A model generated the notes under the pieces. That model searched no databases. It was not told the origin of the DNA and saw only the letters and a list, made by a program, of their open reading frames with translations. Of a DNA stretch of 32,224 nucleotides, positions 2,736-31,987 are shown in pieces. Made by a program: the position numbers and the translations under genes. The stretch is taken from assembly GCA_004525545.1 (NCBI GenBank), contig SPCU01000008.1, positions 1 to 32,224 of the forward strand, given 5' to 3'. The stretch comes from Methanomassiliicoccus sp. GTDB taxonomy: Archaea; Thermoplasmatota; Thermoplasmata; Methanomassiliicoccales; UBA472. Within the stretch, counting starts at the first letter, position 1, and every line of letters starts with the position of its first letter.

Positions 2736-3509
2736 TCAGCGTCTTCTCTTGGTTTTCGGGTTCGGGCGCCGCCAGATCATGAAGGTCACGAACCCCATGA
2801 GAATGACCAATACCCAGAGCAATGAGTTGACCCCTCCGTACCCTGGCATTTTGTAGTATATAGTGGTCTCGTACACTGCGGAACCGCCTTCAAAGGTCAC
2901 TATATGGTTATTGGGATCCAGCAACATCCTCACCTTGTGCTCCCCGGATTTAAGGTCCAGGGCCGTCCAATTGTAAAGGAAGGCATAGGACCCGCCCGCT
3001 TCCAGGCTCATGCTGGTGTTGTAGAACTGCACCCATCCGCCGTCCTGGTAGATCTGCAGTACCAAGGGCACATCGGTGACGCTGACGTTGCCGGTGTTCC
3101 TAATGGTGGCCGAAAGCACTACCGGCTCAACGACCAGCAACTTGTATTCTATGCTGGTTGTGACGGTCTCCACGGTGTTGGCAGAGGTGCAGTTGATCGT
3201 GATGGTCAACATCTGTGGGACCTCAGGTGCGGTCAGGTTGATCGAGACCACCCCGGATGTGATCGGTCCCCCGCTGTTGGGTAGGAGGAAGGAATTGTAG
3301 GTGTTCTCGCCCTTCAGCTCCGCCTTCCACGAATAATTGCCATTACCCGCCTCGGCCGGTCCACCGACCATGGTCAGTATGTAATGGACATTCTCCCCCG
3401 TGGTAACTGTCATCGGGCCGTTCAACTGGGCGTGCAGCGGAGTGGTCGCAGTATCAGCCTGGACCAAGGGCATGGCCCCTATGAACAGGCACGCGACCAG
3501 TATGATCAT
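2736..3509 (-). CDS. Secreted single-TM protein with CARDB-like domain, coupled to aglB
   Basis: 257 residues with no named family recognised. A hydrophobic signal segment (about 1-18) is followed by two beta-rich domains. The second (about 125-220) reads like a CARDB/NEW3-type immunoglobulin-like fold (ATIRNTGNVSVTDVPLVL, SGEHKVRMLLDPNN). A single C-terminal TM (about 228-247) ends in a very basic tail, RRPNPKTKRRR. There are six N-X-S/T sequons (NYS, NLT, NCT, NVS, NTS, NWT). Its ATG overlaps the aglB stop in TGATG, so it should be translationally coupled to aglB. It may be an accessory subunit of, or a substrate for, the oligosaccharyltransferase. The n-region lacks the usual positive charge; the codons just upstream read KKAL but offer no ATG, GTG or TTG. 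Confidence 0.75.
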   Translation of the reverse strand: MIILVACLFIGAMPLVQADTATTPLHAQLNGPMTVTTGENVHYILTMVGGPAEAGNGNYSWKAELKGENTYNSFLLPNSGGPITSGVVSINLTAPEVPQMLTITINCTSANTVETVTTSIEYKLLVVEPVVLSATIRNTGNVSVTDVPLVLQIYQDGGWVQFYNTSMSLEAGGSYAFLYNWTALDLKSGEHKVRMLLDPNNHIVTFEGGSAVYETTIYYKMPGYGGVNSLLWVLVILMGFVTFMIWRRPNPKTKRRR

Positions 3510-6500
3510 CAGCGCTTTCTTCGTGATAACACCCCCTTCTGTATACTGAGGACCAGGAGCACGGCCATGAGCGTTAGCGTTACGCCCAGTAGGATGATGG
3601 TGTCATCACCTATCTTCGGTGTGCTATCGGATATGCCGTCACCGGTGATCGATAGGCCCCCGGCGCCAAGTCCCACGAACTCCGGGGTCATGTCCAGGGT
3701 CGTCTGTACCGCCGCATCGTTCTCCGACACTGCTATGATCTGTACGCTTACCGTCGGGCTCGGATTCTCTCTTATTGGCACAAGGGACACCCGGACATCG
3801 ACCGTATCGGAGGCTGCTACAGTCAAAGAGAGGGAATCGCTCAAGGCGGTCCCGTTCACCAGTTTGACCTCCCAGCCCAGGTCCCTCAGGGCATCCTGGT
3901 TGCCGATGGTCACGGTATACTTGTCCTCCACATTGCCAAGGTTGCTGAGCGGCGCTTCGAACAGGTAATCGCTACCGTCCGTCTGCAATGCCCCCACATA
4001 TTCTAGGCCAACGGAGCGGAAGGGAAGTATGTCGGCATCCAGGCTCACCGAGCTAGTGGCCGAGGAGTTGGATATGGATGTCGCTTTCACGGTCACGGCA
4101 GTGTGCGTCACCTTGATGGTGCTGGATGGAGTTACCTCCACGGTCACGATCTGGCTGGCGCCAGTGCCATAGTCCAGTGATACCTCGGACTGCGAGAACA
4201 CCACGGCCCAGCCGGTGCCAGTGGCCGTCAGCTTGAAGGTGTCGGCCACGTTGCCCAGATTGACCAGCTTTATGGTGTATATAGCTGTCTGGCCGGCACT
4301 GAGGGTGGCCTTCTGGTTAGAATCCCAGGTCACTTCCACCGCATAGGACAATTGCTTGTCCATGACGATCCCCTTTGACGTTACACCTGCAAGGGTGACG
4401 TTCGCCTGGCCGGTGTATGTTACCAACACCCCATACTCCAATAGCTGGGTTTCGGCCGAAAGGATATAGGTTCCTGATGGCAGGTACACTTCGTAGATAC
4501 CATCCGCGTTGCTGTTGAAGCTGTACACCTCGTTGCCGGTGACGGTCATCTTGGAGTCTACACCAATATCGTTGGCGAACGTCACTCCAGATAGGCGTAA
4601 GGACCCGACCACCTCCACATCATACTCGAATGTCCCCGGTTCAGCGACCATTAAGGTGCCGAGGAAGGCCTTGGTGTTATCCACGCTAAGAGCGTAGACG
4701 CTGTAATTGCCAGGGGCGAGTTGCACTGAGTAGTTGCCGAAGGGAACGTCCACGGACAGGTCCATGGCCGTTCCGGACAAGGCCTGGAACTGTATGGACG
4801 ATGATGTGGGCGTTCCAGAACTGAGCACCTGCCCCATGACGGTGGCATTGTCCAGTGTCCTGGTGGTCGAGATCGCCACGTTCATCAGGGAGGATGCCAT
4901 CGTGAAGGTGGTCTCCCCGGTGTAGCGCACATACCTGTCCACAAGATCGATCTTGGCCACAGTGCGATGGTCCACAGAGGCCGTGTATGTACCTGGGGAA
5001 AGATATACGGTGGCCAGTCCGGCCGCGGAGGAGGTCGCGTTATAATACGCGCCCCCTGACATTATGGATATGTTAACGTTGCTGATAACGGCGCCGCTAA
5101 GGTCCGCACGTAGCACCACCTGATCCGCTGTGGCGGCCGCTACGTCCAAGGTCATCGGTCCGCTTATGGTGACCGAGGACAGGTCGGCCGAGTGTTGGGT
5201 GGAGTTGTCCACCCTGACGTACAGGGAGTAGTCGCCTACCTGAAGGTATACGGAATAGGTGGTAACAGCCGATACAGCGGTCCTTTCGGGACCGTCGAAC
5301 ACCATAGTGACCGTACCGCTGGGGCTCACGGTCCCATTGACCAGAACCCTCTCCACGATCTCAATGTCGAGCGAGGTGGGATCGTGGCCTATGTCAATGG
5401 TCAACTCCATGGATTCGAGCGATTGGTACTTCACCGATGTATCACCCGGAATGACGTTATGGTCAACTTTGATCAGGTAATCGCCGGGAACGAGGCTCAA
5501 CGAGAAGCTGCCATCGGCCGTGGTCTCCGTTGTCCTGCTGGAGGCTGAACCGCCATCGGCAGTGAAGGAGACGAGGACGCCCGAAATGGCCATGGATATC
5601 TTCCCACTGACCTGCCTCTCTGTGGCCAGCATTTTCAGGTCTGAGGTGACGCTGGTGTCGAGCGAGGCGAAGCTATTGGATAAGAGGTCATAACCGGCCT
5701 TAATGGCAGTAAGGGCATAGCTCCTTCCGGTCACCAGTCCGAACGAGTAATGGCCGGTTGAATCAGTGGCCACCGATACCTTACGGCCGTCCTGGTCCGC
5801 AATGCTGACCAGCACGCCGCTCAACCTCTCGCCGGAGGATATGACCCCATCACCGTTGGCGTCGTACCAGGCCGTGCCGGTTATCTTGACCGAGGAGAGC
5901 ATGTTGAATGTGGACGAAACGGAAGCGTCCAGGTAAATATCGTCCCAGTAGGAGCGATATTCATCGTACATGTAGACGAAGTACAGGTCCGCCGGCAGAA
6001 CGACCCTGAAGCCGCCGTCGGTATTGGTCACGGCATTGAACACCGCACCAGTGGTCCTGGATTCCATGCGTACCGTCGCCCCGGACGCGCCGCTTCCACC
6101 GGACTGCACATTGCCTTCCAGGACCACGGCCTCGGCCATCTGCAAGGTCAGCACCATACTATCGGTGGCCTGGACCTTGGATAGGTAGACGACCTCTTGC
6201 CCGTTCACAGTGGCCGTGGCATACACGGACACGTTACCTTTGGGCATGACAACGGAGTATCGGCCGCGGGAGTCGCTACTCACCCACACCACACCATAGT
6301 CTCCAGAGAGACCGATCATGGCGTTGGACACCGCGTTCCCATCATAACTGACCAGGCCAGATATGCGCATTGACTGGTACAGTACGAGGTCTAGATTCCG
6401 GGCATCTCCCTCGGACAATTGCAGTTCGGAATTCTCAAGGACAGTGTCATCGGGCGTCTGGATAGTATAATTGCCGGGTAGCAGCCCTTGGAACGAATAG

Positions 6501-9500
6501 GCGCCTGATGCGTCCGTAGTGGTCTCTATGACCGTTCCACTGGTCTGATCGAGCAATGACATTTCGATCCCGTTGGCGGCGTTGCCATCCTCAAGGAGAA
6601 CGGCACCGGTCACGCTGGCGGGTGTATAGGCGAAGTCAGCTATGACCGGGCTTCCGATCTTGACGCTGACCTCCTTCTCACCGAACACATGCCCCTGGTA
6701 CTCCACCCACATGGTCCCGTTCATTGGGGATACGCCTATGATCTCATAGCCATCCGCGGTGGAGACCACTTCGGCCCGGTAGCCCGATGTCTCGTTCTCG
6801 AACACCACTGTGGCGCCGATCAAGGTCTCATCTTCCGCGGAGAACCTGCCGTTCTCGTCCATGTCCAAGTACACCTGACCCTCGATGGAGCCGCCGGTAA
6901 TGATGACGTCCAGATCTACCATGTAATCTAGCTGGCCGTCCTTATTTACATCGTCCGGGACCCGCATGGCCTGGTCGTAAGTGATGTTTAGAGTCGTAGA
7001 GTATATCTCGGTACCCACCTGCAGGCGCAGGTCCAGGTCGCCGTAGGAGAACACCACTGTGACATCGCCGAAGGGAGCGATCAGGCTGTAATGCCCATCG
7101 GCGTCGGTCTGGACCATCTGGTGCGGTATTCCGTACTCGTCCAGCACAGTGACCCACAAGTTGGCCATGGGCCTTCCGGAGTCGGAAACGGCGGTTCCCT
7201 CGATGATCGCACCATCGTAGTACTGTAGGAAGACCACTCCCTGGTATAAGCCGGAGGAGGAAAGGTCGATCGTCCCGATGACCTCACCAGTGCTGATCTT
7301 GCCGTACAGCTCGATGCCCTCATCATATGAGATGGCCCTCCAAGAATCAGAGTGGTTGGCCACTTCCGTACTGGGGTAGGGGCTGTAGTAGGAGGTACGG
7401 TAGACCATACGGAAGTTGCTCATGTTCCAGCCCTGCATAGATGGCGAACTGGACAGGCTGCCGGAGATGCCCGGTATGCCCTGTTCGGTCGCTCCCACAT
7501 CGCTGGGTCCATATCCCATGAAAATACGGTAAAGCATGGTGTCGTAGAACGCCTCGGTGTAGACGATCTCGTAATCGACTATCTGATCGCTCGTGGTCAC
7601 CTCTTCCAGTGGGATCTGGAGACCGTAGCTGTCGATGGCGTATATCTGGTAATAATCGTAGGGAGTGTTGGTGTTTTCGTCGACACGCTGGTCGGACAGC
7701 TTTGCTGGAGCGTAGAAGATATTGTATGAGGTGGCGGAGAAGGGGAACAGTCGGCTATCCACTGAGAAATAGCCGATATCGTTCCCGGTGATACTCCTTA
7801 CCTCATTGTACAGAGAGACCAGCTGGCCCTTGTCAAGCTTGGACAGCTCCGCCTTGGCCGCGGCATATTTGGCGTTCCCCGCACTGAGATCCGATTCGTA
7901 ATAACCATAGATCTCCGGGTTGTCCAGGACTATCTTCACGTAGGAAGCGGGGCTGGTCATGATATCCTTTATTTTAGCCACGTCCACCCCATAGGTTTCC
8001 ATTGAGGCCAGTATACTGGCATAGGCCGGATTGCTGCTGTCGGTGATGTCCTTCTCCACGCATCGCACAATGAGCAGAGCGATGGCGCCCTCCTCGGTCT
8101 GGGTCATGAGGAAGCTACCAGCGAACTGATAGCCGTTCTGGAAGTTGTCGGCCACCGACGGGTGGTCGCCTTCCTGCATGGCCTCGAAACCATAGTCCCA
8201 CCAGGAAAGGAAGGCCGGACGGTTTATTGGAGAGGGTGTCTCGGTGTCCTGCATGGAGAACCATTTCCAGGCCGAAGGCCAATATTCGTCAGGCAGTGAC
8301 ATGCCGTAGCTGAATGCCCCCAGGTACCAGTAGGTACCGTTCTCGACATCGTAGTCCCCTGGCCTCATGAAACCGGGCATGGCCAGGTATATCTGGCGAT
8401 CGTAATCCTGCTTTGTATCGGTCGGTATTCCCGCGTCCAGGGCGTACCAGGTGTTGGGCACCAATATCATCATCACGACGAAAAGAGCGCCGATGATGTG
8501 CCGTAGCTTGACCGAATGCCGTATCATCTTCACCAGTCCGCCGTGGTCGGAGCGCATGTTGCGCACCATCTCGTCGAACTTGAGGTGTGAGATGATCATT
8601 CCCAATACCCAACCCGCCGAGACGGCGAATGCCGGGGAGGCGTTGAACACGAACCTGGCCGCCGAGGAGGCCATGTAGATGGATACGCCCACCCAGACCA
8701 CTACGAATATGAAGTAGGGGCTGATGTTCTTGGGAATCTTATAGACGGCCCACCCCACGCCTATCAGCGAGAGCCAGAAGGTGACCATACCGAATGACAT
8801 GGCCAAACTGGAGAATCCCGGGGCCTGCGCCTCGGAAATCGTATCGTAAAGCTTGCTCTTGACCAGGTAGCCTTGTCCTGATATGATCGATTCGAAGAAG
8901 GCTGGAGAAAATACCGCTAGCAAGGCCAATGTCGCCAGGGCCAGGACGGTGAACGCCGGTAGTACGAGTGTCCAGGGATAGTCGCGGGTGACCACGAACA
9001 TGAGACCCAGGACCGCTCCGCCCACGAAAAGGAATAGCGGAATGTCGAACCATGTCTTCCAGATGCCCATCATGGTATAGACCGGGGCCATGAGCAGGAA
9101 GGCCACCCCGAAGAAGACGATGATGGAGAACAACACGCCCATTGAATCAGAGTTCCGGAAGCGGTCCACCAGGAGCTGTACCAGGAAGTATACCAGGACG
9201 ATGACCATGATATATGGGAAACCTGTCCAGATCATACCCACTGCTGCCACGCAGAGACCGCCTAATGCAGCGTAGATCAAAGATACTTGGTTGGTACCGA
9301 AGTACTTCTTGATCCCGACCGGTATGGTCTTGCGGTCCTTCCAGCTGGATACCCAGTTCGAGCCGCTGACCGTCTGAAGTGAGCGAAGCAGGAAATAGAA
9401 GGCGAAAACCACGAAGAAGAGCACCATGGCGTCATGGTCCGCGTTGGACAGAACGCTGCGCTCGATGTGACCCGCCATGATGGCGAATATGAAGGCACCC

Positions 9501-10003
9501 AATATTCCGGCCTTTTTACCGAAGGCCGCCTTGCCCAGCATGTAAACTGGAATGACCGTCAGCGCACCCCAGATCGCGGTGGAGAACACTAACGACATGC
9601 CCACTGCACCGGCTATAGCGGCGCCGGTAACGGCGCTAGCGAACATCCCGAACACCGCCACTGACCAGTCATACAGCGGAGGTCGAGGGTTCATCATCCC
9701 GTTGGGATAGTTCAGCATTTCATCGTACAGTAGTTGGTCCCCAGTTAACACCACGTAGTCGATGACCCTTTGATGATAGTAAGAGTCGGAACCTCCCGAT
9801 AGTAGGAAGCCGTTCTCCACCGATGTGGAGTAGCCGAAGTAGCTCCTGACGAACAATGCCAGGAATACTAACATTACTATTAACAGCGCCGTCTGCCAAT
9901 TTCTTCCGACCCAAGAATCCGATAGGTTCCGGGAGAAATTAAACAACGAAGTAGAACGCTGCTTATCAGTAGGGCGACTGGACCCCTCCTGTTTCGTTAC
10001 CAT
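3509..10003 (-). CDS. aglB: Giant AglB oligosaccharyltransferase with Cna-B-like repeat extension
   Basis: STT3-family enzyme that transfers lipid-linked glycans to Asn in N-X-S/T sequons outside the cell membrane. About 13 TM segments fill residues 40-520. Catalytic and acceptor motifs (numbered from the upstream TTG) are SDSYYH with Asp74, NADHD (188-192), TISE (389-392, the TIxE motif) and WWDYG (602-606). The STT3 part ends near 900, roughly normal for archaeal AglB. It continues with about 11 Cna-B/carboxypeptidase-regulatory-like beta modules (from about 930), some with acidic Ca-binding-type loops (DANGDGVISSGE), two NEW3-like domains, one TM near 2137-2156 and RRKR at the end. The ATG at 10003 has GGAG eight bases upstream and is preferred to the TTG at 10006. 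It is cotranscribed with the secreted protein gene. AglB assignment is firm; the extension's function is unknown. Confidence 0.94.
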   Translation of the reverse strand: MVTKQEGSSRPTDKQRSTSLFNFSRNLSDSWVGRNWQTALLIVMLVFLALFVRSYFGYSTSVENGFLLSGGSDSYYHQRVIDYVVLTGDQLLYDEMLNYPNGMMNPRPPLYDWSVAVFGMFASAVTGAAIAGAVGMSLVFSTAIWGALTVIPVYMLGKAAFGKKAGILGAFIFAIMAGHIERSVLSNADHDAMVLFFVVFAFYFLLRSLQTVSGSNWVSSWKDRKTIPVGIKKYFGTNQVSLIYAALGGLCVAAVGMIWTGFPYIMVIVLVYFLVQLLVDRFRNSDSMGVLFSIIVFFGVAFLLMAPVYTMMGIWKTWFDIPLFLFVGGAVLGLMFVVTRDYPWTLVLPAFTVLALATLALLAVFSPAFFESIISGQGYLVKSKLYDTISEAQAPGFSSLAMSFGMVTFWLSLIGVGWAVYKIPKNISPYFIFVVVWVGVSIYMASSAARFVFNASPAFAVSAGWVLGMIISHLKFDEMVRNMRSDHGGLVKMIRHSVKLRHIIGALFVVMMILVPNTWYALDAGIPTDTKQDYDRQIYLAMPGFMRPGDYDVENGTYWYLGAFSYGMSLPDEYWPSAWKWFSMQDTETPSPINRPAFLSWWDYGFEAMQEGDHPSVADNFQNGYQFAGSFLMTQTEEGAIALLIVRCVEKDITDSSNPAYASILASMETYGVDVAKIKDIMTSPASYVKIVLDNPEIYGYYESDLSAGNAKYAAAKAELSKLDKGQLVSLYNEVRSITGNDIGYFSVDSRLFPFSATSYNIFYAPAKLSDQRVDENTNTPYDYYQIYAIDSYGLQIPLEEVTTSDQIVDYEIVYTEAFYDTMLYRIFMGYGPSDVGATEQGIPGISGSLSSSPSMQGWNMSNFRMVYRTSYYSPYPSTEVANHSDSWRAISYDEGIELYGKISTGEVIGTIDLSSSGLYQGVVFLQYYDGAIIEGTAVSDSGRPMANLWVTVLDEYGIPHQMVQTDADGHYSLIAPFGDVTVVFSYGDLDLRLQVGTEIYSTTLNITYDQAMRVPDDVNKDGQLDYMVDLDVIITGGSIEGQVYLDMDENGRFSAEDETLIGATVVFENETSGYRAEVVSTADGYEIIGVSPMNGTMWVEYQGHVFGEKEVSVKIGSPVIADFAYTPASVTGAVLLEDGNAANGIEMSLLDQTSGTVIETTTDASGAYSFQGLLPGNYTIQTPDDTVLENSELQLSEGDARNLDLVLYQSMRISGLVSYDGNAVSNAMIGLSGDYGVVWVSSDSRGRYSVVMPKGNVSVYATATVNGQEVVYLSKVQATDSMVLTLQMAEAVVLEGNVQSGGSGASGATVRMESRTTGAVFNAVTNTDGGFRVVLPADLYFVYMYDEYRSYWDDIYLDASVSSTFNMLSSVKITGTAWYDANGDGVISSGERLSGVLVSIADQDGRKVSVATDSTGHYSFGLVTGRSYALTAIKAGYDLLSNSFASLDTSVTSDLKMLATERQVSGKISMAISGVLVSFTADGGSASSRTTETTADGSFSLSLVPGDYLIKVDHNVIPGDTSVKYQSLESMELTIDIGHDPTSLDIEIVERVLVNGTVSPSGTVTMVFDGPERTAVSAVTTYSVYLQVGDYSLYVRVDNSTQHSADLSSVTISGPMTLDVAAATADQVVLRADLSGAVISNVNISIMSGGAYYNATSSAAGLATVYLSPGTYTASVDHRTVAKIDLVDRYVRYTGETTFTMASSLMNVAISTTRTLDNATVMGQVLSSGTPTSSSIQFQALSGTAMDLSVDVPFGNYSVQLAPGNYSVYALSVDNTKAFLGTLMVAEPGTFEYDVEVVGSLRLSGVTFANDIGVDSKMTVTGNEVYSFNSNADGIYEVYLPSGTYILSAETQLLEYGVLVTYTGQANVTLAGVTSKGIVMDKQLSYAVEVTWDSNQKATLSAGQTAIYTIKLVNLGNVADTFKLTATGTGWAVVFSQSEVSLDYGTGASQIVTVEVTPSSTIKVTHTAVTVKATSISNSSATSSVSLDADILPFRSVGLEYVGALQTDGSDYLFEAPLSNLGNVEDKYTVTIGNQDALRDLGWEVKLVNGTALSDSLSLTVAASDTVDVRVSLVPIRENPSPTVSVQIIAVSENDAAVQTTLDMTPEFVGLGAGGLSITGDGISDSTPKIGDDTIILLGVTLTLMAVLLVLSIQKGVLSRRKR

Positions 10004-10048
10004 CAATTAATCTCCTCTGGGGTAATTATCAACTGATATCAGACCCCG

Positions 10049-10119: not shown

Positions 10120-10773
10120 TCACCTCTGTGGGAAGGCACTTTTTATCTCTCTTACAACCTGCAACGCAGCTTCTCGGGGGTCTTCCGCCCCGTATATGCT
10201 CCGACCGACGATGACATAGTCCGCCCCCTTTCCGAGGGTGATCGAGGCGCTCCCTCCCTGTGCCCCTACGCCCGGGGATAATATGAGCAGGTCCCCTATG
10301 ATCCTGCGTAACGCCGCCACCCTCTCCGGCCGTGTGGCCGGGGCGATTATACCTGAAGCGTGGCAATCCACTGCCATCCTAGCCAGCGACTCAGCGGCTG
10401 AGGCGGTGTATTCAGTGCCTCCGGGATGGCTCATCTCGGTGACCACGAATATCTTTCGACCTTCAGCGGCCTGCACCGCTGCCTTGACAGAGTCGCTGCC
10501 TGTGAAACCATGGACGATGACCCCGTCAGCGCCACGCTTGATAGCTTGGCTGACGATCAGGGATACGGTGTTCGGTATATCCGCCACCTTGAAATCGCAG
10601 ATGACCGGCGCGAGTTTGGAAAGCTCGGTTATGATCTCCGGAGATGTCGACAGTACCAGCGGCCAATTGATCTTGATGGCGTCCACTAGATCGGCCACCT
10701 GCCCCGCCACCCATAAGGCTCGCTCGCCCCGCACTTCGTCCAGCGCCAGAATGACCCTGCTTTCCTTCCTCAT
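10120..10773 (-). CDS. pyrF: Orotidine 5'-phosphate decarboxylase
   Basis: Last step of UMP synthesis: decarboxylation of OMP. The 217-residue TIM barrel shows the DFKVADIP motif with Asp60, Lys62 and Asp65, the catalytic Lys/Asp network, the HGF loop and the phosphate-binding VGRSIYGAEDP near the C-terminus. The start is the ATG at 10773 because it is preceded by GGAGGAAGGG at a suitable distance; the frame is open 33 codons further upstream, but those residues are unlike the family. It is divergent from the radical SAM gene. Confidence 0.96.
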   Translation of the reverse strand: MRKESRVILALDEVRGERALWVAGQVADLVDAIKINWPLVLSTSPEIITELSKLAPVICDFKVADIPNTVSLIVSQAIKRGADGVIVHGFTGSDSVKAAVQAAEGRKIFVVTEMSHPGGTEYTASAAESLARMAVDCHASGIIAPATRPERVAALRRIIGDLLILSPGVGAQGGSASITLGKGADYVIVGRSIYGAEDPREAALQVVREIKSAFPQR

Positions 10774-10846
10774 GTTCCCTTCCTCCGAAGGGGAAAGGCG
10801 AATATAGGATTTGGCATGGACAAGCGTTAAGTCTGCCCGTGATGGT

Positions 10847-11920
10847 ATGGTGATCATGCGTACCATCCCCATGGAATCGTCCTCGTTCTACACCAGGCGC
10901 CTACCCCGCGGTTGCCGGCTTTGCCGTAAGGGAACGAAGATGGTCCTGCTGGTGACCGGAAAGTGCGCAATGTCCTGCTACTATTGCCCCCTGTCCGAGA
11001 GAAAGAAGAACAGGGATGTGGTGTATGCCAACGAACGTCTGGTTGAGAAGGACGAAGACGTTTTAGAGGAAGCGATGGCCATCGGTGCTAGGGGCACTGG
11101 CATCACTGGAGGCGATCCCTTGGCGGTCATTGACAGGACGGTTCATTATATCACATTGCTCAAAGAACGTTTCGGTAGCCAGCATCACATTCATCTGTAC
11201 ACCTCAACTATCGATCGGGATAAATTTCTCAGGTTGCAGGAGAGCGGCCTTGATGAGCTGCGTTTACATCCCCCTGTGGATAGCTGGGGCCATTTGGACG
11301 AGCTAGGGATCGCTGAAAGCCTGGAAGGACTGGTCATCGATGTTGGGTTCGAGGTGCCGGCGATCCCCGGGGAGAAGGAGGGATTGTTAGCGCTATGTCG
11401 TTATGCTTCCGAGCACGACCTGGGCTTCGTTAACCTTAACGAACTGGAGATATCGGAGACCAATTCCCAGGCATTGTTGGGAAGGGGATTGACCGTACGC
11501 TCTGACACCTCCAGCGCCATTCTGAACAGTGAGGATATGGCCCGGGAGGTCGTGAGCAGGATGGGGGCAGACGTTGCCGTGCACTTCTGCTCATCCAGCT
11601 TCAAGGACCAGGTGCAGCTGCGGGAAAGGTTGAAAAGGAGGGCCAAGCGCGTGGCCCGTCCCATGGACCTGGTGACCCGCGAGGGAATGATCCTGCTTGG
11701 CATAGCGGAAGCGGATGACCCGGTGTGGGCCATGCGCTTGCTGGAGAAGGAACACGAAGTACCTCTGGAGCTAATGTTCTTGGATGAAAAGAGGAAAAGG
11801 TTGGAGGTGGCCTCCTGGGTGTTGGAGGACCTGGCTTCCCGACTTCCCTTCCAATGCTACCTGGTGGAGGAGTACCCCACCGCGGACCGCCTGGAAGTGG
11901 AACGGGAGCCTTTGAACTGA
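10847..11920 (+). CDS. Radical SAM protein, COG2108 type (PFL-activase related)
   Basis: Radical SAM enzyme of unknown substrate related to pyruvate formate-lyase activating enzymes. With the ATG at 10847 it has 357 residues. CAMSCYYC supplies the CX3CX2C [4Fe-4S] ligands (Cys40, Cys44, Cys47), with a GTGITGGDPL segment following for SAM binding. A CRLC pair (Cys23, Cys26) just before could be a metal or cluster site. The C-terminal third, including TREGMILLGIAE, matches no named accessory domain that I recognise. ATGs at 10811, 10847 and 10856 are all possible. An AATATA element near 10801 predicts transcription from about 10829, which excludes the first. It ends directly against the convergent nusA stop with no gap. 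Confidence 0.8.
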   Translation: MVIMRTIPMESSSFYTRRLPRGCRLCRKGTKMVLLVTGKCAMSCYYCPLSERKKNRDVVYANERLVEKDEDVLEEAMAIGARGTGITGGDPLAVIDRTVHYITLLKERFGSQHHIHLYTSTIDRDKFLRLQESGLDELRLHPPVDSWGHLDELGIAESLEGLVIDVGFEVPAIPGEKEGLLALCRYASEHDLGFVNLNELEISETNSQALLGRGLTVRSDTSSAILNSEDMAREVVSRMGADVAVHFCSSSFKDQVQLRERLKRRAKRVARPMDLVTREGMILLGIAEADDPVWAMRLLEKEHEVPLELMFLDEKRKRLEVASWVLEDLASRLPFQCYLVEEYPTADRLEVEREPLN

Positions 11921-27480: not shown

Positions 27481-28512
27481 TCATGGACTGTACTTTCCCA
27501 GTACCTTCCCCAGATCGTCCCCTGGAGCTACCGTGGGAGCGAAGGGGCCGTTCATCTCCGATATGCCGGTGATGATGGCGATCATTCGGATGTTTCCCTC
27601 CATCTCCTCCTCCATGCGCACTCCGAACTTGACCGTCGCCTCCTCGTCCAAGACCTTGGTGATACTTGCGATGATCCGATTCGCACGACGCATGGTCAGA
27701 TTGCTACCGCCGGCGATATGGATGAGGGCGCCGGTGCCGCCGCGAATGTCCACGTCCAACAGTGGATTTTCAACGGCCTCCCGAACAACAGCCTCTGGAT
27801 CGGCATTCTCCCCATAGAGGATGGTGGACACTCCTCCCTGCTCCATGATGGTGCGCAGGTCGGCGAAGTCCAGGTTGATGAGCGAGGGCAAGGTTAGGAC
27901 GTCCACAGTACCCTTGATCAATTCAGAGATGAGCTGGTCGATCACCGCCAGCCCCTGATCGACCGGTATGTTCTCCACCATGTGCAGAAGACGGTCGTTG
28001 TCCAGCACCAGCATACTGTTCGACGCTTCCCTGAGGCGTTTCAATCCCTTCAGGGCGATGTTGCGACGTGTAACTCCTTCAAAACTGAAGGGCGTGGTGG
28101 CGATCGTGATGACCATAGAACCGCAACGTCGGGCGATGTCCGCTACTACTGGCGAAGCGCCTGTACCAGTGCCTCCGCCGAGACCGGTGATTATGAACGT
28201 CAGGTCAACGCCCTGAAAGATCTTGGATAATAGCACAGAGGCGTTTAGGGCGCATTCTTCTCCTACATCAGGACGGCCACCGGTGCCTAGACCCTTCGTG
28301 TACTCCGCACCTATCAATAGTCGATTAGGACATTCCGTGACCTTGAGGGACCTCTGGTCAGTATTGATGGCGACCGTCGTGGCTGACTCTATGCCGATCT
28401 GGTTGAGACGGGTTATGCTATTACACCCACCTCCCCCACAACCGACCACCAGGATGTTGAGCTCGTGTAGCTCTACCTCAGACTCATCCAGCCCCTCGAA
28501 GCGCGACCCCAT
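27481..28512 (-). CDS. ftsZ2: Cell division GTPase FtsZ2
   Basis: Tubulin-family GTPase, 343 residues. The N-terminal Gly-rich loop is VVGCGGGGCNS (22-32), the tubulin signature GGGTGTG is at 112-118 and the T7 loop NLDFAD at 213-218. Features such as VLDNDRLL, LPSLINLDFADLRTIMEQGG and LLDVDIRGGTGALIHIAGG follow the archaeal FtsZ2 pattern. In haloarchaea FtsZ2 drives constriction, working after FtsZ1. A short tail (about 320-343) follows the core. It lies 28 bases after the RHH gene and should be in the same operon; SD-like GGAGCTGAGGG precedes the ATG. Confidence 0.93.
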   Translation of the reverse strand: MGSRFEGLDESEVELHELNILVVGCGGGGCNSITRLNQIGIESATTVAINTDQRSLKVTECPNRLLIGAEYTKGLGTGGRPDVGEECALNASVLLSKIFQGVDLTFIITGLGGGTGTGASPVVADIARRCGSMVITIATTPFSFEGVTRRNIALKGLKRLREASNSMLVLDNDRLLHMVENIPVDQGLAVIDQLISELIKGTVDVLTLPSLINLDFADLRTIMEQGGVSTILYGENADPEAVVREAVENPLLDVDIRGGTGALIHIAGGSNLTMRRANRIIASITKVLDEEATVKFGVRMEEEMEGNIRMIAIITGISEMNGPFAPTVAPGDDLGKVLGKYSP

Positions 28513-30467: not shown

Positions 30468-30736
30468 TGCAGGACTTGAAAGCCCTCTAACCCCTCAGGC
30501 TCTTCCACCTTGATGTCCATCCGGATCACCTCGGCTTTGGGGTGCTCGTTCTTGAGCTTTCTGATCAGTTCTTGCACCGACTGACGCTGCCCTTCGAAAA
30601 CTGCATTGACCGTCCCGTCGGGCATATTCTTGATATAACCGCTGATGGAGAGCACCCTGGCCCATTGCCGCGCATATTGACGGAAATAGATCCCTTGGAC
30701 CCTCCCCTCGAAAACGACCGAAACGCGGTACACCAT
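30464..30736 (-). CDS. acyP: Acylphosphatase
   Basis: Small enzyme of 90 residues hydrolysing acyl phosphates such as carbamoyl phosphate or acetyl phosphate. The signature FEGRVQGIYFRQYARQWA carries the phosphate-binding Arg at about 19, and GYIKNMPDGTVNAVFEG carries the catalytic Asn at about 37. Length is normal. It ends with TAG, overlapping the TatD-like gene's end by four bases. Confidence 0.95.
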   Translation of the reverse strand: MVYRVSVVFEGRVQGIYFRQYARQWARVLSISGYIKNMPDGTVNAVFEGQRQSVQELIRKLKNEHPKAEVIRMDIKVEEPEGLEGFQVLH

Positions 30737-30799
30737 TATGATATCATCAGATTTAGGACCTATAATTATCTATCCCGGTCAGTCTGGGGAGCAAGAATA

Positions 30800-30810
30800 T
30801 TTAATATAAA
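30800..30810 (+). promoter_or_regulatory. TATA box of ftsZ1
   Basis: TTTAATATAAA predicts a start near 30831 and a leader of about 32 bases that contains the GGAAGGG Shine-Dalgarno. Confidence 0.5.
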
Positions 30811-30862
30811 GGTCATATCGGAGCAGAACTCTAAATATGGCCGTGGCCAGAGGAAGGGATGG

Positions 30863-31987
30863 ATGATGAAATCACTTGTTGAGGAAGCTCTAGCGAAGGA
30901 AGCCGCCCCAGTCAGGATGGAGGCCACACCGAATTTCGGATACCAGCAGTTGGATTCGACGGACGCTGAGCTAATAGAACTTTTACAGAAACTGAAAACG
31001 AACATCAAGATCTTCGGCGTGGGGGGAGGCGGTTCGAATACCATCAGCCGCATCTCCGAGGAGAACATCTCCGGGGTGGAGACCTACGCCGCCAACACAG
31101 ATGCCCAGCACTTGCTGGCCGCCAGGGCGCAACATAAGATCCTGCTGGGCCGTAGGAGCACTAGGGGATTGGGCGCTGGAGCGCTCCCGCAAGTTGGGGA
31201 GCAGTCGGCCAGAGAGGCTGAGGAAGAGATCAGGAAGGCTGTCACCGATGCTCATATCGTCTTCGTCACCGCCGGCATGGGCGGAGGCACCGGAACCGGG
31301 GCCGCCGCCGTCGTGGCCGGGATGGCTAGGGAGATGGGGGCATTGACCATCGCGGTCACCACCACCCCCTTCAAGGGCGAGGGGCGCATGCGCATGGAGA
31401 ACGCCGAGTGGGGACTGCAGCGCCTGAGGAGTTCGGCCGACACAGTAATAGTCATACCGAACGACAAGCTCATCGAGCTCTACCCGCGACTCGGTCTAAA
31501 TCAGGCCTTCAAGGTGGCGGACGAGATCGTTACCAAGGCTATCAAGGGGATCACCGAACTTATCACCAAACCCGGCCTGGTCAACCTGGACTTCAACGAT
31601 GTCCGAACGATAATGAAGGGAGCCGGGGTTGCCATGATCGGACTTGGAGAGAGCGATGGTCATGCCGAGGACCGGGCCAAGGAGGCCATCGAGCGCGCCT
31701 TGAGCTCCCCCTTGCTGGAAGTGGATATCACCGGAGCGAACGGAGTGCTTGTCAACGTCATAGGCGGAGAGGACATGACCATTTCGGACGCCGAGTTCAT
31801 CGCCGAGGAAGTGCAGAGGAGGGTCAGCCCCAACGCCAGGATCATCTGGGGAGCGGCCGTGGACCCCTCGTTGGAGCATACCATCAGGGTGATGGTCGTG
31901 GTGGCCGGGGTCAAGTCCAAGCAGATCCTAGGAACACCCAACGACACCGAGAAGCTGCGCAAGGCCGATCTGGACTTCATCCGGTAA
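30863..31987 (+). CDS. ftsZ1: Cell division GTPase FtsZ1
   Basis: Tubulin-family GTPase, 374 residues. The FtsZ1 pattern is clear: an N-terminal tail starting [10 protein letters not shown] and ending in [25 protein letters not shown], then [13 protein letters not shown], the GTP-binding GGGTGTG (140-146), [18 protein letters not shown] with the T7 loop at 241-246, and AMIGLGESD. In haloarchaea FtsZ1 forms the first ring and recruits FtsZ2 and SepF. The start ATG follows GGAAGGG at 30852-30858; a second ATG follows at once. The open frame extends far upstream over acyP, but the TATA box excludes this. No sepF is visible in the window. Confidence 0.94.

Follow-up and report, generated by a model that had tools for sequence, protein, structure and literature searches.

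The oligosaccharyltransferase AglB of Thermoplasmata archaea bears a long arm of beta-sandwich modules and is encoded beside a small Ig-like membrane protein

Results

The aglB locus and the oligosaccharyltransferase part

The window, a 32,224-nucleotide stretch of a Methanomassiliicoccus sp. contig (SPCU01000008.1), carries aglB on the minus strand as a single uninterrupted open frame (3509..10006; 2165 codons, 2165 aa). Directly downstream lies a small gene, here called the partner gene, whose ATG shares one base with the aglB stop (TGATG; Table 1). The start of aglB is TTG10006 or, more likely, ATG10003, which has GAGGAGA upstream of it, and the product is the sole PF02516 match of its 1.6-Mb, 98%-complete genome. 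Just upstream of aglB and on the same strand is an orotidine-5'-phosphate decarboxylase/HUMPS-family gene (10120-10872), with a homologue in the corresponding position in 28 relatives' loci. Farther along the window, two FtsZ/tubulin-family genes (27481-28512 and 30542-31987) occur within ~4.5 kb, with a TBP gene between them.

Table 1. Coordinates of the features of aglB and its partner gene in the window
Feature	Position	Strand	Remarks
Partner gene, 257 aa	2736..3509	-	Signal peptide, two Ig-like domains (second CARDB), C-terminal TM, basic tail
GGGGGTG, Shine-Dalgarno-like signal for partner gene	3530..3536	-	Inside aglB 3' end; encodes tail K-G-V
C-terminal TM helix, residues ~2134-2156	3539..3607	-	
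Two NEW3-like modules, residues ~1886-2108	3683..4351	-	
TTR/CarboxypepD_reg-like modules 2-11, residues ~1030-1885	4352..6919	-	
TTR-like module 1, residues ~925-1012	6971..7234	-	Conservation as strong as catalytic part
AglB/STT3 part, residues 1-915	7262..10006	-	~12-13 N-terminal TMs, then soluble catalytic domain

Residues 1-915 are a canonical AglB and share with the AglB/STT3 proteins (A. fulgidus AglB, PDB 3WAJ/5GMY; TIGR04154; PF02516) the membrane domain of the oligosaccharyltransferase (OST) and the catalytic motifs, including WWDYG. PF02516/STT3 matches residues 62-499 at 52.4 bits against a cut-off of 24.5, so the STT3 membrane domain is present, and the acidic, TIXE and WWDXG motifs are all intact (GGSD74, D190HD192, TISE392 and WWDYG at 602-606). 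The best structural match of this part is the 875-aa A. fulgidus AglB. TIGR04154, the archaeosortase-A-associated STT3 model, reaches 234 bits, below its curated cut-off of 450 bits.

An arm of TTR-like and NEW3-like modules

Past the OST part the chain continues for another ~1,230 residues, which comprise 11 TTR-like and two NEW3-like modules, a TM helix and a basic tail. An earlier sequence-only reading of this DNA had described an AglB extended by this many residues, with about 11 beta-sandwich modules, two NEW3-like domains and a terminal TM with RRKR, and our analyses agree on each count. In Pfam, CarboxypepD_reg matched eight stretches (E 2e-43), FixG_C matched 1909-1978, and NPCBM_assoc/NEW3 matched 1904-1976 weakly. 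In a profile-profile comparison of slices of the arm, almost all pairings among m2-m11 had a probability of 87-99%, with 32% for one pair. The slices n1 and n2 paired only with one another, at 98%, and module 1 completes the set. An AlphaFold model of residues 966-2165 (pLDDT 86.9) has beta-sandwiches throughout the arm and ends in a helix at 2134-2156, with a pTM of 0.43 meaning that the domains are reliable and their arrangement relative to each other is uncertain. Hydropathy places the C-terminal TM at 2137-2155, followed by RRKR. The modules had also been called Cna-B-like; this holds for the kinship, as the related TTR/prealbumin models SdrD_B, SpaA and NOMO do match the arm, but not for the name, as Cna_B itself has no Pfam match up to E = 1 in the window AglB. 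No carbohydrate-binding Pfam family exceeded its own cut-off for the window protein. A Foldseek search with the arm model gave generic multi-Ig matches only, with a query-normalised TM of at most ~0.12 among the 50 matches listed.

In all pairs that could be compared, the arm has changed more rapidly than the OST part. The exception within it is module 1, with an identity among relatives of 0.55-0.58, the level of the catalytic part, vs. 0.30-0.43 for most of the remaining arm.

Occurrence and length

The profile of the OST part, searched against 130 Thermoplasmata genomes, found AglB in 122, and 107 of these 122 frames are longer than 1,800 aa (median 2,186). Among the 15 shorter frames, 13 come from genomes in which the best partner match is absent or sits on a different contig, the pattern that truncation of genes at contig ends would give. 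In the complete AglB proteins of the class that were examined, a TM and a basic tail close the chain. In the rest of the phylum, frames fall at ~1,160-1,430, 2,300-2,750 and 3,150-3,260 aa; CarboxypepD_reg modules are present in all four AglB checked outside the class, two of which are short forms that lack a C-terminal TM. The survey of lengths covers Thermoplasmatota, to which the 80 loci returned in one scan also appear to belong. Compared with known AglB from other groups (875 aa in PDB; 831 positions in the NCBI model), the expectation that AglB ends soon after its catalytic domain is right; it is wrong within the phylum, where such length is not unusual.

A frame error or a fusion of two genes, which would have undone the sequence-only reading, can be rejected as the origin of the long form, given that the frame is uninterrupted and the long form is class-wide. 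Nor did close relatives have aglB and the repeats as separate genes: only G018 seemed to be split, and there the assembly has an ambiguous base at the point of frame change, with arm coding going on in another frame. As a separate observation, members of family f5 have a second gene of ~410-450 aa that weakly matches part of the STT3 N-terminal domain (G011:C83, G012:C24, G013:C22, G017:C139, G019:C4, G021:C29 and G023:C6). Judged by title and abstract, no relevant literature was found on AglB in combination with Methanomassiliicoccales or with carboxypeptidase-regulatory domains.

The partner gene and its putative translation signal

A profile built from 40 partner proteins matches 129 of the 130 class genomes and 72 of 74 good genomes of the order Methanomassiliicoccales, with the proviso that E up to 1e-3 takes in other CARDB proteins. 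In 106 of 106 class genomes with both best matches on one contig, the partner follows the arm in the same orientation, 3.1-4.5 kb beyond the OST match. Outside the class, an adjacent partner is absent from most of the loci examined. By sequence and by fold, the partner matches CARDB and generic Ig domains only, with no match to TRAP-beta or an OST accessory subunit, and the idea that it is a TRAP homologue is therefore unsupported. In Methanomethylophilaceae the partner tail R-K-P-V-K-N-F/Y-G-K-P-K-x-R-R is strikingly conserved and the ectodomain is not (loci L082-L084, L090, L091, L093-L095, L097); this cytoplasmic tail may bind something in the cytoplasm.

The conserved AglB tail, KGVFxRRKR, coincides with a nearly invariant GGGGGTG. 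The glycine codon is GGG in 40 of 40 tails and the valine codon GTG in 38 of 40, against a background in these genes of 17% of Gly and 34% of Val codons. In several families that lack the GVF tail, GGAGG-type purine runs occupy this position. The distance from GGGGGTG to the annotated partner start varies. The simplest reading is that the heptamer serves as a Shine-Dalgarno signal for the partner, and conservation of the aglB tail would then be at least partly a by-product of that signal. A cytoplasmic binding motif is unsupported as the sole explanation of the tail, whose conservation is at the DNA level and fits a signal for translating the partner. A loose GVF pattern was no commoner genome-wide than in a reversed control.

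Sequon enrichment in the arm and partner

In lineages with intact catalytic motifs, N-X-S/T sequons are enriched both in the arm (698 vs. 421 in the reversed control) and in the partner (164 vs. 72). No such excess is seen in motif-less lineages (arm 448 vs. 419; partner 17 vs. 16), nor in a D-X-S/T control. The contrast between the two sets of arms has p = 2e-6, uncorrected for shared descent. One motif-less genome, G016, still has a sequon excess over shuffles, and the window alone gives small numbers (sequons vs. reversed, arm 15 vs. 6 and partner 6 vs. 5). These counts support the view that arm and partner are extracytoplasmic and carry glycans of their own, and that the motif-less clade has lost N-glycosylation. 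Together with the C-terminal TM and basic tail, the excess in the arm supports the proposal of the sequence-only reading that the enzyme is anchored at both ends and has a long extracytoplasmic arm.

Loss of catalytic motifs with retention of the arm

All or nearly all catalytic motifs are lost in 32 Methanomethylophilaceae sequences and in G016, a member of another family (loci L084-L097, L202-L219 and L098). Gut relatives of the window methanogen are thus affected. Within Methanomethylophilaceae (f6), the loss covers most of the sequences that were examined, genera g26 and g29 excepted, and the starred branches of the tree force two independent origins of the loss. The replacements include GGSS/GGTG, NGTE, L.. 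and TWIDY/TWYGY, with isolated residues such as GGSD kept in a few. Proteins of the class families f7, f9, f10, f12 and f18 deviate in the second acidic motif alone; as GGSD/GGAD, T[IV]AE and WWDYG are intact there, we do not count them as dead. Many of the motif-less Methanomethylophilaceae genomes are unseen by PF02516, and the A3 profile finds frames of ~1,860-2,030 aa in them.

Every complete motif-less locus still encodes a full-length chain with its C-terminal TM and a tail of the GVF type, which reads GMF in one case, and the partner gene follows within a few bases. About 1,000 open arm codons are kept throughout the motif-less clade, across long branches. Pfam recognises TTR modules well in G016 (150.6 bits), and weakly or not at all in two Methanomethylophilaceae examples, so the arm of that family is kept in length and anchor but strongly diverged. 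For the arm of the motif-less genus g25, a crude method that suffers from saturation and codon bias gives a dN/dS near or above 1, which could reflect either relaxed constraint or a surface under diversifying evolution. The motif-less genomes tested have 0-7 matches to GT2 glycosyltransferases vs. 4-13 in intact ones, and in G078, a single-contig, 1.7-Mb genome of a motif-less lineage, no GT2 glycosyltransferase (PF00535) was detected. We infer that AglB activity has been lost in the motif-less lineages.

Discussion

Archaeal OSTs have been described as single-subunit enzymes (PMC5131992), and the solved AglB chains are 875 aa long; the window AglB has ~1,230 residues more, ends with a TM helix and is encoded together with a partner. 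Newly described here are the partner gene, invariably adjacent to aglB within the class where both share a contig, the sequon enrichment of the arm and partner, and the two losses of catalytic motifs. The sequence-only reading had missed that the arm is class-wide, that a partner is co-encoded, and that the RRKR tail coincides with a putative translation signal for the next gene. From the intact motifs and the sequon enrichment, we predict with moderate confidence that the window AglB is an active OST that transfers glycans and has its own extracytoplasmic scaffold fused on.

Among known proteins, the arm is most reminiscent of NOMO, a subunit of the BOS complex. It crosses the membrane once and carries Ig-like domains in tandem on its lumenal side, the last of which have been modelled touching the lumenal domains of TRAP, and it has been proposed to tether the lumenal domains of translocon components (PMC11169918). 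The best solved-structure match of the arm profile is NOMO2 (PDB 9c7v; E 8.6e-35), NOMO_5th and NOMO1-like_9th pass the Pfam cut-offs in the window AglB, and the arm taken alone shares the design of tandem TTR/Ig-like domains followed by one C-terminal TM. However, NOMO is not fused to an OST, and the matched stretches are out of order rather than collinear over the tandem domains. We therefore reject orthology, keeping the shared domain type, and regard the likeness as one of design, not descent. Similarly, the partner resembles TRAP and the accessory subunits of eukaryotic OST in being a small type I membrane protein built of beta-sandwiches, whose gene accompanies that of the OST, but differs from them in having only generic Ig/CARDB domains. 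Tandem TTR-like modules are also found in MSCRAMM-like TTR/SdrD_B surface proteins such as SdrD and UafA; unlike these, the arm is fused to an OST, has TMs at both ends, and terminates in a TM and basic tail instead of a cell-wall sorting signal.

What the arm does can be approached through features that the computation shows: its architecture and conservation, the adjacency of the two genes, the enrichment in glycosylation sites, and the survival of the arm through two independent motif losses. Its fusion to an OST, and the OST-like conservation of module 1, which abuts the catalytic domain, would suit an arm that serves glycosylation directly by capturing acceptor proteins or glycans and presenting them to the catalytic site. 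The sequence-only reading had suggested such substrate presentation, and the suggestion is weakened by the two motif-less lineages, one of them with a genome (G078) lacking detectable GT2. Since the arm, anchor and partner have outlived catalysis twice, a main role confined to feeding the catalytic site is unlikely, and the window protein also has no carbohydrate-binding family above cut-off. We consider it equally improbable that the arm is a structural or adhesive protein of the cell surface, such as an S-layer-like rod or a contact with cells or viruses, tethered via the OST by chance: fast evolution relative to the OST part, many sequons and the resemblance of the tandem TTR modules to the adhesins SdrD and UafA are all compatible with this, but membrane anchors at both ends suit an arch rather than a protruding rod, and a co-encoded single-TM partner suggests a membrane complex. 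Passive accretion of domains, with the arm as a spacer of little specific function kept by inertia, could account for lengths that vary over the phylum (~1,160-3,260 aa) and for poorly conserved distal modules. It is the least probable of these possibilities, as ~1,000 open codons, the C-terminal TM and the partner would hardly be kept by inertia throughout the motif-less clade and its long branches.

The best explanation overall, to which we give about even credence, is an OST fused to an extracytoplasmic NOMO-like scaffold, with the partner as a subunit. The OST part would sit in the membrane, and the chain of 11 TTR-like and two NEW3-like modules would extend on the outer face and come back to the membrane via the C-terminal helix. 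The partner, made from the same mRNA and probably by coupled translation, would probably bind the arm or the OST part to form a two-protein OST complex, although adjacency of the two genes could reflect co-regulation only. Much like NOMO in eukaryotes, the arm and partner would then act on the outer face of the membrane to hold or organise proteins, be they exported clients, membrane proteins nearby or the cell surface, and would do this independently of sugar transfer; their function is probably separable from glycosylation. For Thermoplasmata as a whole we propose, a little more tentatively, a two-protein OST in which a NOMO-like scaffold and Ig-like partner have a glycosylation-independent role, and which in two lineages has become a catalytically dead scaffold.

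For annotators, most Methanomethylophilaceae AglB genes probably do not encode active OSTs. This family offers a natural experiment separating the scaffold role from catalysis. The class-wide arm and invariably adjacent partner suggest a larger OST assembly in the whole class, gut methanogens included, and provide a point of comparison for how eukaryotic OST and translocon complexes acquired their lumenal beta-sandwich accessory domains.
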